Positions 8,453-11,923 of a DNA stretch of 64,000 bases are shown here, piece by piece. Where the stretch lies: the NCBI RefSeq assembly GCF_001854325.1, contig NZ_CP017754.1:868001-932000 (forward strand). The letters are read 5' to 3'. The position numbers and the translations under genes were made by a program. Within the stretch, counting starts at the first letter, position 1, and the number at the start of each line of letters is the position of its first letter. Source of the stretch: Cupriavidus malaysiensis. Lineage in GTDB: Bacteria; Pseudomonadota; Gammaproteobacteria; Burkholderiales; Burkholderiaceae. Under the pieces are notes generated by a model, which saw only the letters and a program-made list of their open reading frames with translations, did no database searches and was not told the origin of the DNA.

Positions 8453-8908
8453 TCAGCCCGGGGCCGGGCCGCGCGTCTCGTCCAGCGTGCTGAGCAGGGT
8501 CCGCAACTGGCGCGCCTTGGCCGCGCCGAGGCGGTGCACCAGGCTGTCTTCGTGCGCCTGTACGAGGGCATCCAGCCGCGCCGACAACTCCAGTCCCTGG
8601 TCGGTGGCGTAGAGCAGCACGCGGCGGTTGTCTGCGCTGTCGGGACTGCGCATCGCCAGTCCCTGGGCGATCATCTTGTCGACCAGCTTGGTCAGCGTGG
8701 GCGGGTGCATCAGCAGCGACTGCGCGACTTCCCCCATCGCATGGCCGTGCGCATCCGCCAGCACGCGCAGCACTTTCCAGTGTTCGACCTGCACGCCTTC
8801 CGCGGCCAGCGCGGCTTCGAGCCGCGCCTGCACGGCGGCGTGGGCACGGGCGAGATGCTGGGTGAGGTAGCCGTCGAAGGCGGCCGGGGGCGGAGTGGTG
8901 CGGGACAT
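8453..8908 (-). CDS. MarR-family transcriptional regulator
   Basis: A 151-residue winged-helix regulator. Helices VQVEHWKVLRVLADAHGHAMGEVAQSL and the wing after PPTLTKLVDKMIAQGLAMR (DSADNRRVLLYAT) are standard MarR features. It is divergent from the AmiC-like gene, with 86 bases between starts, and those bases hold a cluster of GGAAA/TTTCC palindromes. The same palindrome type lies over the amidase promoter at 10254-10290, so this protein is the natural candidate for controlling both. The ligand may be an amide, a carboxylic acid product or an aromatic acid; none can be read. Confidence 0.9.
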   Translation of the reverse strand: MSRTTPPPAAFDGYLTQHLARAHAAVQARLEAALAAEGVQVEHWKVLRVLADAHGHAMGEVAQSLLMHPPTLTKLVDKMIAQGLAMRSPDSADNRRVLLYATDQGLELSARLDALVQAHEDSLVHRLGAAKARQLRTLLSTLDETRGPAPG

Positions 8909-8914
8909 TGCGCT

Positions 8915-8948
8915 AGTATAGGGGAAAACTTTCCCAGGAAAATATTCC
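8915..8948. promoter_or_regulatory. Divergent marR / amiC-like promoter region with palindromic operator sites
   Basis: GGGAAA (8922-8927) and TTTCCC (8930-8935) form an inverted repeat with a 2-base centre. They run straight into a second overlapping one, TTTCC (8930-8934) with GGAAA (8937-8941), and a third, GGAA (8937-8940) with TTCC (8945-8948). A minus-strand -10 TATACT (8915-8920) for marR abuts the cluster. The same units recur over the amidase promoter at 10254-10290. The palindromes are direct observation; binding by the divergent MarR protein is inference. Confidence 0.6.
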
Positions 8949-8994
8949 GCCCCAGGCCCACGGCGTGTTCCCGGGCGCGCAAGGAGACGACGCG

Positions 8995-10137
8995 ATGCAA
9001 TGGAAGCCGCTGCCCGCGAAGCCGGCCGACACCGGCGACGAGCCCGTGGACGATCCCTGTGCCACCTGCCTGGTCGGGCCGCCGCCGCCGCCCCGCACGC
9101 GCCATGCGGGCCGGCTGGAAGTGGCCTTGCTGGTGCCGGTGCGTGGAGCCACCGGTATCTGGGGACCGTCGGCGCGCGCCTGTGCCCAGCTCGCCGCCGA
9201 GGAACTGAACCGCGCCGGCGGCGTCGGCGGCCGCGAGCTGCGCCTGCACGTGTTCAACGCCGCCGACGAATGCCGCGATATTCCGCAGCAGCTGGGCGCG
9301 CTGATCGACGAGGGCGCCCTCGACGCGGTGGTGGGCATGCACACCAGCGCGGTGCGCGGCCGGGTCAGCGCCGCCACGCGCGGACGCGTCCCCTTCGTCT
9401 ACACGCCGCTTTACGAGGGCGGGGAACGCGCGCCCGGCGTGTATGCCATCGGCGAGACGCCGGAACTGCAGTTGCTGCCCGCGCTGCGCACCCTGTGCCT
9501 GCGCTACGGCGCGCGCCGCTGGGTCTTCGTCGGGCATGACTGCGTGTGGCCGCGTGCCTCGCACCGCTTCGCCGGGGCCGCCCTGCAGGCGCTGGGCGCG
9601 CAACTGCTGGCCGACCGCTACACCCGTCCGGCCTGTGGAAGCTACCGCGCGGTGCTCGACGAGATCGAACGACTGCGTCCCGATGCCGTGCTGCTGTCGC
9701 TGGTCGGCCAGGATGCCATCGACTTCAACCGCGAGTTCGCCGCGCGCGGCCTGGCGCGCCGCATACGGCGCCTGTCCTGCGCGATCGAGGAGAATGCCCT
9801 GCTCGCCATCGGCGCCGACAGTACCGCGGGGCTGTTCGCCTGCGCCGGCTACTTCGCCACGCTGGGCCACGATGCCAACATGGCCTTCAAGGAGCGCTAT
9901 CACGGCCGCTACGGCGAGCGCGCGCCGGTGCTGAACGCGCTGGCCCAGTCGGCCTACGACGGCGTGCATTTCCTGGCCGCGCTGCTGGCAGCGCCGGGCC
10001 GCGCGGCGGGACGGCGGGCGCCGCTCGCCTTCCGCAGCGTGCGCGGACTGTCCTGGCAGGGCAACGCGCGCGTGCAGCAGCCGGTCTTCCTGGCCGAGGC
10101 CGATGGCCATTTCTTCCAGGTGACTGAGCGCCTCTGA
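8995..10137 (+). CDS. AmiC-like cytoplasmic amide/urea-type sensor (Peripla_BP_6 fold)
   Basis: A 380-residue type I periplasmic-binding-protein fold starting at about residue 38 ([19 protein letters not shown]), with [19 protein letters not shown] typical of the AmiC/UrtA/FmdD branch. There is no signal peptide or lipobox, so it should stay in the cytoplasm, as Pseudomonas AmiC (385 residues) does. The N-terminal extension contains a CATC motif (Cys22, Cys25) followed by a run of prolines, which is unusual. The ATG at 8995 was chosen because AAGGAG lies 8 bases upstream; a GTG at 8965 has none. With a MarR gene on one side and an amidase on the other, it is probably the amide sensor of this module. 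No AmiR-type antiterminator is adjacent. Confidence 0.82.
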
Positions 10138-10160
10138 CGATACCGGCCAGCATGGCCGTG

Positions 10161-10180
10161 GCCGGCCGTCAACGGCCGGC
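10161..10180. other. Hairpin after the AmiC-like gene
   Basis: Perfect 8-base arms GCCGGCCG (10161-10168) and CGGCCGGC (10173-10180) with a 4-base TCAA loop, starting 23 bases after the stop codon. There is no T-tract, so it is at best a weak intrinsic terminator, or a Rho-related or mRNA-stabilising structure. It separates the sensor from the amidase, which has its own promoter. Confidence 0.4.
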
Positions 10181-10253
10181 GACAAGGGGGCCGGCGCCCC
10201 GGGGCGTGCTTGTCGGGTGTTCCTGGCGTGCTCGTGGTTTCCCCTAGGATCCA

Positions 10254-10292
10254 ATTATTTTCCTTGGAAAATATTTCCAGGGAAAATAATAT
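10254..10292 (+). promoter_or_regulatory. Amidase promoter fully covered by palindromic operator
   Basis: A perfect 10-base inverted repeat, ATTATTTTCC (10254-10263) and GGAAAATAAT (10281-10290), encloses an inner one, GGAAA (10266-10270) with TTTCC (10274-10278). A promoter fits inside it: -35 TTGGAA (10264-10269), 17-base spacer, -10 TAATAT (10287-10292). The element resembles the marR/amiC-like intergenic sites (8922-8948), so the same repressor probably binds both. The leader to the amidase start is about 110 bases. Confidence 0.65.
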
Positions 10293-10408
10293 GCTCGCTG
10301 TCGCGGCGGTGCAGGGCGATCGCATGGCGCAGCCCAGGCCCCCGCCGGCCGTCCCTTTCCGGCCGTCCCTTTTCCTGCCGTTCTGTCCCCCCCTTCCAAG
10401 GAGCCCCC

Positions 10409-11923
10409 ATGACCGTGAAGCGACCGACCCTCGCCCAGATGCGCGAACTCACCGCCAGCCTGCACATGACGATGAGCGAGGCCGAATGCGCCGACTACCT
10501 GGCGCTGATGGAAGGCAGCATGCAGGCGTACGACCGCCTCGAAGCGCTGCCGGACTTCGTTCCCGCGCCGCGCTATCCGCGCGACGCGGGATACGCGCCG
10601 CCGCCGCAGGAGAACCCGCTCAATGCCTGGTACGTGAAGACCGAGGTGAAGGGCGCGCCGGCCGGGCCGCTGGCGGGGCGCGCGGTGGTCCTGAAGGACA
10701 ACATCAGCCTGGCCGGGGTGCCGATGATGAATGGCGCCTCGACGCTGGAGGGCCATGTGCCGTCCATGGACGCCACCGTGGTGACGCGCATCCTCGATGC
10801 CGGCGGCACCATCGCCGGCAAGGCGCACTGCGAGTACTTCTGCCTGTCGGGCGGCAGCCACACCAATGCCACCGGCCCGGTGCACAACCCGCACCGCCAT
10901 GGCTACATCGCCGGCGGCTCGTCCTCGGGCTGCGGCGCGCTGGTGGGCTCGGGCGAGGTCGACATGGCGATCGGCGGCGACCAGGGCGGTTCCATCCGCA
11001 TCCCGGCTGCCTTCTCCGGCTGCTACGGCATGAAGCCCACGCACGGGCTGGTGCCTTATACGGGCATCATGCCGATCGAATCCACCATCGACCACACCGG
11101 GCCGATGACGCGCACGGTGGCCGACAACGCGCTGCTGCTGGAGGTGATCGCCGGCCCGGACGGGCTCGACCCGCGCCAGTACGCGCCGCGCGTGGCGCGC
11201 TATACCGAGGCGCTGGGCAAGGGCGTGGCGGGACTGCGCATCGGCGTGGTGCGCGAGGGCTTCGGCCACGCCAACAGCGAACCCGGGGTCGATGCCAAGG
11301 TGCGGGCGGCGGCGCGGCGCCTGGCGCAGCTCGGCGCCGAGGTGGAGGAGGTCAGCATTCCGATGCATGCCGACGGCGTCGCCATCTGGACGCCGATCGC
11401 CCTCGAAGGCCTGCAGGCGCAGATGATGCACGGCGACGGCATGGGTTTCAACTGGAAGGGCTTGTACGACACCGCGCTGATGGCGCGCCATGCGCGCTGG
11501 CGCGAGCATGCCGACCGGCTCTCGCCCACGCTGAAGCTGTCGATGTTCGTCGGCGAGTTCTACCTGCGCCAGTACGGCGGGCGTTTCTATGCCAAGGCGC
11601 AGAACCTGGCGCGCCAGCTGCGGCTGGCCTACGACGCGGAGCTGGAGCGCTTCGACCTGCTGCTGATGCCGACCCTGCCGATCACCGCCAAGCCGATCCC
11701 GGCGCCGGACGCGCCGCTGGCCGAGGTGATCCAGCGCGGCTTCGAGATGGTGGCCAACACGGCGCCCTTCGACGCCACCGGCCATCCGGCCATGAGCCTG
11801 CCCTGCGGTCTCGACGATGGCCTGCCGGTGGGCCTGATGCTGGTGGGCCGGCACTGGGGCGAAGCCACGATCTACCAGGCCGCGCATGCCTTCGAGCAGG
11901 CCGGCGACTGGCGCGGGCTGTAA
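10409..11923 (+). CDS. Amidase, amidase-signature family
   Basis: A 504-residue amidase hydrolysing a carboxamide to acid plus ammonia. The Ser-cisSer-Lys catalytic set is visible: Lys96 in VVLKDN, the GGSSSG loop at 169-174, and the nucleophile Ser195 in [11 protein letters not shown]. The sequence, including [11 protein letters not shown] and the [13 protein letters not shown] segment, resembles the enantioselective amidases of Rhodococcus more than GatA. The ATG at 10409 has AAGGAG 5 bases upstream (10398-10403); the frame stays open further back through the operator, but that part is not protein-like. The AmiC-like sensor and MarR gene upstream suggest induction by amides or their products. 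The natural substrate is unknown. Confidence 0.9.

Follow-up and report, generated by a model that had tools for sequence, protein, structure and literature searches.

How does an amide signal reach an amidase gene when the AmiC-like receptor encoded beside it is paired with a MarR repressor and not with an AmiR? This question is raised by a three-gene module in a stretch of 64,000 nucleotides from Cupriavidus malaysiensis (contig NZ_CP017754.1, positions 868,001 to 932,000; hereafter the window), which carries a marR gene, a divergent gene for an AmiC-like binding protein (the sensor) and an amidase gene. An earlier note on this DNA suggested that the sensor might relay amide binding to MarR or to an unlinked partner by a different signalling route. 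The part that concerns MarR, rather than an AmiR, gained ground. Judging from the sequence, MarR is the likely relay because palindromes front both the sensor and the amidase genes and because the MarR-sensor pair recurs across phyla.

We favour, with moderate confidence, an amide-inducible repressor switch in which MarR sits on TTTCCNNGGAAA palindromes and the amide-bound sensor lifts the repression. A MarR dimer would block transcription by binding the palindromes between marR and the sensor gene and those ahead of the amidase gene, and MarR would thereby also control its own gene and the sensor gene. The sensor would be a cytoplasmic amide receptor for the amidase substrate or a relative of it. 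The amide-bound sensor would act on MarR, MarR would leave the DNA, and the amidase would be made; hydrolysis of the amide would then reset the switch. The direction, with MarR repressing and the sensor lifting, is taken from the signs in Mycobacterium smegmatis, where AmiA is negative and AmiC positive. We infer in this way the binding of the operator by MarR, the repression, the amide as ligand and the contact between sensor and MarR.

The candidate operator

Five TTTCCNNGGAAA sites were found in the 7.95-Mb genome, as compared to one for the reversed control. Three of the five lie in the gaps of the module, at 8930 between marR and the sensor gene and at 10259 and 10274 before the amidase gene; the remaining two are both within open reading frames (ORFs). 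In 100 shuffles of the window, which preserved base composition only, TTTCCNNGGAAA occurred 0 times. The MarR operator probably consists of these palindromes before the sensor and amidase genes. A wider regulon was considered and rejected: in a survey of exact matches only, the other two sites are inside ORFs and no further target was found.

Operator-like sites were also found in relatives. When the marR-sensor gaps of 22 loci were compared with ACTTTCCNNGGAAAGT, eight gaps (window counted) showed at most 3 mismatches in 14, each reached by no more than 4 of 500 shuffles, and four more showed 4 mismatches (14-33 of 500 shuffles). The gap 3' of the sensor gene, examined in 17 of the 22 loci, had at most 3 mismatches in 11 (window counted; 0-6 of 300 shuffles) and 4 mismatches in two (9 and 23 of 300 shuffles). 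A scan of whole stretches added a site 3' of the sensor gene in L006 and L020; it gave no site with up to 3 mismatches anywhere in L022, L024, L025, L027, L028 and L030. The copies in relatives are often paired, 15-29 bp apart. Here too the shuffles preserved base composition only.

Half of the 14 loci with a site 3' of the sensor gene (L007, L008, L009, L011, L020, L023 and L029) have TTGACT or TTGACC 22-24 bp past the start of the first copy. A -10-like hexamer stands 17-18 bp further in each, for a total of 9 of 12, and a degenerate second copy (4-5 mismatches in 14) lies in register and overlaps the -35-like box. The fixed place of TTGACT or TTGACC across the seven loci is more telling than the promoter score. 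The other seven score 7-9 of 12 without TTGAC, and the second copy is good (1-2 mismatches) in L002, L003, L005, L006 and L010. Because the motif fades in survey loci outside the group, the candidate operator belongs to the Burkholderiales group, and probably to Aminobacter as well. Seven survey loci (L043-L049) share the string ACTTGAAAAGGAAAAT just after the sensor gene, perhaps a related operator.

Several observations weigh against this operator and the switch built on it. The palindrome was spotted in the window first and then tested. Genus mates carry it too, with 0-9 copies per genome; 34 of the 35 examined have 1-9 copies, and none has the sensor. Because genus mates lacking the sensor carry the short palindrome, uniqueness of TTTCCNNGGAAA was rejected as an argument, and what supports the operator is the presence of three sites within 1.4 kb, each where one would be expected. 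The promoter hexamers of the window (8 of 12) were equalled in 38 of 300 shuffles, and a stricter promoter scan found nothing at the operators, TTGGAA-17-TAATAT included. The 9-of-12 score of the seven loci was equalled in 12-47 of 300 shuffles each. Ten of the 22 marR-sensor gaps (107-457 of 500 shuffles) and 4 of the 17 gaps 3' of the sensor gene are at chance level. Among 24 survey loci, whose regions are approximate, at most 3 mismatches were reached only in L020 (after the sensor gene) and in L038 and L055 (before it). On the Aminobacter plasmid pBAM1, compared below, no site with up to 3 mismatches stands before the amidase gene. Two sensor loci, L039 and L050, have an amidase-signature ORF nearby and no MarR within 1 kb.

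Recurrence of the MarR-sensor pair

MarR is divergent from the sensor in all 10 loci retrieved by a peptide pattern and in all 10 plasmid loci, which were chosen for diversity among 40 listed entries, out of 599 matching records. A MarR homologue lies no more than 1 kb from the sensor in 43 of 45 relative loci. Twenty of these loci contributed to the MarR profile, and the independent test is provided by 25 survey loci. The survey found the sensor in 2 of 60 close relatives (E <= 1e-40), in 7 of 399 genomes from the order and in 17 of 397 from the phylum (E <= 1e-45, with no more than four candidates per genome scored); each count includes the own genome. This gave 25 places besides the window; L020 was found twice, and L035, with scores equal to those of L004, is possibly the same locus as L004. 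In 23 of the 25 survey loci MarR is no more than 1 kb from the sensor, and in 20 it is divergent. A strict ANTAR search of these loci gave 0 of 25, and an amidase-signature ORF falls within the examined stretch in 16. The controls were loci with AmiC-like proteins (L059-L083), 25 taken from the 44 places listed; MarR was within 1 kb in 0 of 25, and a strict ANTAR match was found in 11. The search for AmiC-like genes adjoining marR that the earlier note proposed for Burkholderiales thus shows a pair that recurs in that order and across phyla.

In relatives, the partner genes of the pair are amidases or urea/branched-chain-type ATP-binding cassette (ABC) transporters. In L002-L006, L010, L020 and L024, a flotillin-like gene, not an amidase gene, follows the sensor gene, for a reason that is unexplained; it was recognised by Flot and Band_7 domains in L002, by annotation in L024 and by eye in the others. 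Where the stretch extends far enough, a urea/branched-chain-type ABC transporter comes next in these loci.

We tentatively propose a widespread two-protein class: the ligand would be sensed by a cytoplasmic type-I binding protein, serving as the detachable subunit of a MarR repressor. Amide specificity would evolve in the receptor and the DNA-binding part would stay fixed. From Actinomycetota to Proteobacteria, several amidase families and operons for amide-type ABC transporters, in some cases with a flotillin gene, would be driven by this one kind of pair. If this is true, such a receptor, through its action on MarR, would be a modular sensor. With its candidate operator and its compact set of two regulatory genes, the module is suited to the study of the receptor-to-MarR step.

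A tree of 93 binding proteins, rooted at the midpoint, placed the sensor group (45 rows, 43 of them MarR-linked) on one side of a branch with support 100/99, and the ANTAR-linked AmiC group (12 rows) on one side of another with support 100/98. The rows of the sensor group were chosen by a score over 170 bits, and its unity is thus partly built in; the result that counts is that the sensor group is separate from the AmiR-linked AmiC proteins in this tree. L050 and L039 split first within the sensor group, with weak support (81/57 for the rest without L050). The genome of L050 (G597) has three AmiR_N matches. Many module loci encode a second, separate binding protein with a transporter, and it falls elsewhere in the tree. 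In Paraburkholderia largidicola L023, an AmiC-AmiR pair, whose AmiR has both AmiR_N and ANTAR, ends 765 bp from marR; because both stand near each other there, the MarR-sensor and AmiC-AmiR pairs coexist as separate systems. In this locus (L023:3736-9083) an acetamidase/formamidase gene accompanies the AmiC-AmiR pair beside a MarR-sensor-amidase-transporter module.

Genes of the module

The three genes noted earlier were confirmed from the ORFs, with the coordinates unchanged (Table 1). The divergent marR and sensor genes are 86 bp apart, and 271 bp separate the sensor gene from the amidase gene. The module stands alone, because a convergent OprB-type porin gene ends just short of marR and queF, next to the amidase gene, is on the opposite strand. 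The sensor (E <= 1e-40) was absent from 35 of 35 genus mates examined and the amidase (E <= 1e-120) from 39 of 39; the module was therefore gained in this lineage or widely lost. It is a real and functional-looking module of an ordinary kind, and the candidate operator is its new piece.

Table 1. Features of the module, with positions counted from the first nucleotide of the window
Feature	Position	Strand	Remarks
MarR-family repressor gene	8453..8908	-	151 residues; Pfam MarR_2/MarR above cut-off
Candidate operator, marR-sensor gap	8922..8943		TTTCCCAGGAAA (8930-8941) within ACTTTCCCAGGAAAAT (8928-8943), overlapping GGGAAAACTTTCCC (8922-8935)
AmiC-like type-I binding protein gene, probable cytoplasmic amide sensor	8995..10137	+	380 residues; Peripla_BP_6
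Candidate paired operator upstream of amidase	10257..10287		TTTCCTTGGAAA (10259-10270) and TTTCCAGGGAAA (10274-10285), 15 bp apart
Candidate amidase promoter TTGGAA-17-TAATAT, within operator pair	10264..10292	+	weak, 8 of 12
Amidase-signature amidase gene	10409..11923	+	504 residues; Pfam Amidase, NCBIfam PRK07235

Among the three proteins, only MarR has a DNA-binding domain. It matches MarR_2 (PF12802) with 36.4 bits and MarR (PF01047) with 35.1 bits, and its closest PDB sequence is 3cdh, of the MarR family (E=1e-17). The amidase is of the amidase-signature type, as had been proposed, with 309.3 bits for Pfam Amidase (PF01425) and 819.8 bits for PRK07235 (cut-off 545). The catalytic triad of amidase-signature enzymes is Lys, cis-Ser and Ser, and the motifs LKDN, GGSSSG and GGDQGGSIR are assigned to it; all three motifs were found by eye.

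The sensor gene starts with an ATG that has AAGGAG 8 nt upstream. Its product matches Peripla_BP_6 with 198.8 bits and AmiC (1pea) with E=1.3e-20, and the best PDB sequence is 8tg1, a urea-binding protein (E=4.6e-30). No close paralogue was found in the genome, the next-best match being 26% identical. In the first 45 residues of the sensor the peak 12-residue mean hydropathy is 0.64, with no hydrophobic N-terminal segment; the same measure gave 1.19-2.16 in 11 ABC binding proteins of related loci and 0.39-1.78 in 15 other sensors of the family. Because several family members start at the first core strand, hydropathy sets apart the window sensor and not the whole family. The similarity to AmiC and this hydropathy support the earlier description of the protein as AmiC-like and probably cytoplasmic. 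In the N-terminal extension, TCLV (residues 24-27, window 9064-9075) is kept in the window and in P0002-P0004, and the rest of the extension varies.

The structural model of the sensor has a mean predicted local distance difference test (pLDDT) score of 88.7, with residues 1-17 under 50. The nearest folds are a urea-binding protein, AmiC and UrtA, the top rows being tied. In the alignment to AmiC, Tyr104 corresponds to Tyr136 of the sensor, the residue that differs between 1pea and 1qnl to Pro138, and the GSDYIYPR stretch to GHDCVWPR; we take these parts of AmiC to line the amide pocket. All 49 family members compared share Y136, L139, E141, G142, G180, D182, W185 and P186. The nearest folds are urea and amide receptors and the pocket-aligned residues are conserved, so an amide or a urea-like compound is the likely ligand. 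Position 183 is Tyr in at least 90% of the 49 members and Cys in the window and its closest relatives P0001-P0004. This substitution hints at a different amide ligand.

Alternative explanations

The fold and sequence similarity of the sensor to AmiC would also suit an AmiC of the Pseudomonas aeruginosa kind, working through an RNA-binding AmiR encoded elsewhere. The genome searched (7.95 Mb, 99.99% complete) holds one ANTAR domain, at L001 (G000:C2:184856), in a NIT-ANTAR protein. This protein looks like a nitrate regulator, because it combines NIT and ANTAR domains and its gene adjoins an ORF that, read by eye, is formate/nitrite-transporter-like. An AmiR_N search of the whole genome gave 0 matches; the same search was positive in 4 of 4 control genomes picked for carrying AmiC relatives. 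The earlier statement that no AmiR-type protein lies nearby therefore holds for the entire genome, no AmiR homologue was found elsewhere in it, and AmiR-based control of the amidase was rejected. With the sensor also outside the AmiR-linked clade, the unlinked AmiR partner that had been envisaged is hardly credible. We also consider it very unlikely that the sensor is a substrate-binding protein of an ABC transporter for urea or amide uptake and not a regulator. Its Peripla_BP_6 domain, its match to UrtA (TIGR03407, 133.6 bits, far under the cut-off of 492.75) and the database names of many homologues, which read "urea transport system", would agree with such a role. However, by hydropathy the window sensor has no signal segment, and no transporter gene adjoins it; the nearest ABC-type ORFs are on the far side of oprB and a TetR gene, where together with an adjoining HlyD gene they form an export-type set. 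In many relatives, moreover, the transporter comes with a separate second binding protein, which falls elsewhere in the tree.

MarR proteins usually bind the ligand themselves, so the sensor may be unneeded for the release of MarR, and this is a further point against the switch. MarR might sense the amide or its acid directly, leaving the sensor a secondary task, for instance to buffer or prime the inducer. The best NCBIfam match of MarR would fit such sensing; it is HpaR, which senses an aromatic acid, with 61 bits, under its cut-off of 121.2. The two sensor relatives without MarR within 1 kb point the same way. Direct sensing is nevertheless unlikely in our view: it makes it hard to explain why MarR and a separate neighbouring receptor have stayed together in Alphaproteobacteria, Betaproteobacteria and Actinomycetota (including L022, L027 and L028), and AmiC of M. 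smegmatis is given as a positive regulator in an excerpt of PMC12719403. MarR could instead be an activator, with the amide-bound sensor as its co-activator and not as an anti-repressor. Two operator copies stand before the operon, and in the seven TTGAC loci the better copy is upstream of the -35-like box. The degenerate second copy in those loci, however, overlaps the -35-like box, a repressor's place, and the same excerpt reports AmiA of M. smegmatis as negative (PMC12719403). An activating MarR therefore appears improbable, and the repressor switch lifted by the sensor remains the reading that we prefer.

Comparison with known systems

Like AmiC of P. aeruginosa, the sensor has a type-I binding fold close to AmiC. 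It differs from the AmiC-AmiR system in that its partner is MarR and not AmiR, it belongs to a separate clade, and no AmiR was found in the genome. For the enzyme alone, the closest solved sequence relative is the amidase of 3a1k/3a1i (515.9 bits for 3a1k, the best PDB sequence), which is presumably that of Rhodococcus sp. N-771. In Rhodococcus rhodochrous J1, the AmiC-like NhhC and the MarR-like NhhD together control the amide-induced nitrile hydratase genes, a likeness drawn here by description only. Among the literature matches listed, there was no account of NhhC/NhhD or of a MarR-sensor pair in Proteobacteria.

Plasmid pBAM1 of Aminobacter sp. MSH1 (L021) resembles the window in having divergent MarR and sensor genes (47% identity), an operator-like site in the marR-sensor gap and, on the same plasmid, an amidase 48% identical to the window amidase. 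Unlike in the window, IS5 transposase, nitroreductase and acyl-CoA synthetase genes separate this amidase gene from the pair, at a distance of about 3.7 kb. According to PMC8460812, 2,6-dichlorobenzamide is hydrolysed by BbdA, the amidase of pBAM1. The 48%-identical enzyme, the only amidase annotated in the stretch examined, is taken to be BbdA. In L021:2135-9092 the MarR-sensor pair and its operator-like site lie between two transposase genes on this dichlorobenzamide plasmid. With a relative of the pair on a 2,6-dichlorobenzamide amidase plasmid, the ligand logic could have practical use.

AmiA of M. smegmatis, which we take to be a MarR-type regulator, belongs to the system that the module most recalls. 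The acetamidase operon of that species is under AmiA as negative and AmiC and AmiD as positive regulators, according to an excerpt of PMC12719403. Titles in two reference lists point in the same direction: PMC4523840 cites Parish 2001 on amiA as a negative regulator, and PMC13209695 cites Venkatesan 2018 (AmiC as a positive regulator) and Sundararaman 2014 (AmiA). Thus the "different signalling route" of the earlier note is not new. The likeness, by description only, consists of an amidase, a negative regulator and a positive regulator named AmiC, and the window has what regulation of the AmiA/AmiC type requires, a MarR gene adjoining an AmiC-like gene and an amidase gene. The window module has neither an AmiS gene nor a third regulator gene, and in this it differs from the M. 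smegmatis system. In M. arabiense L027, MarR is divergent from a member of the same sensor family, which is followed by AmiS and an aliphatic amidase; that amidase is a CN_hydrolase, whereas the window amidase is of the amidase-signature type. The M. arabiense sensor is 68% identical to a homologue that goes under the name "aliphatic amidase regulator" in M. fortuitum and M. mageritense. The acetamide promoter of mycobacterial genetics may depend on the same kind of pair. By this analogy, the module is a further example of a known arrangement that resembles the mycobacterial one, and not a new kind.

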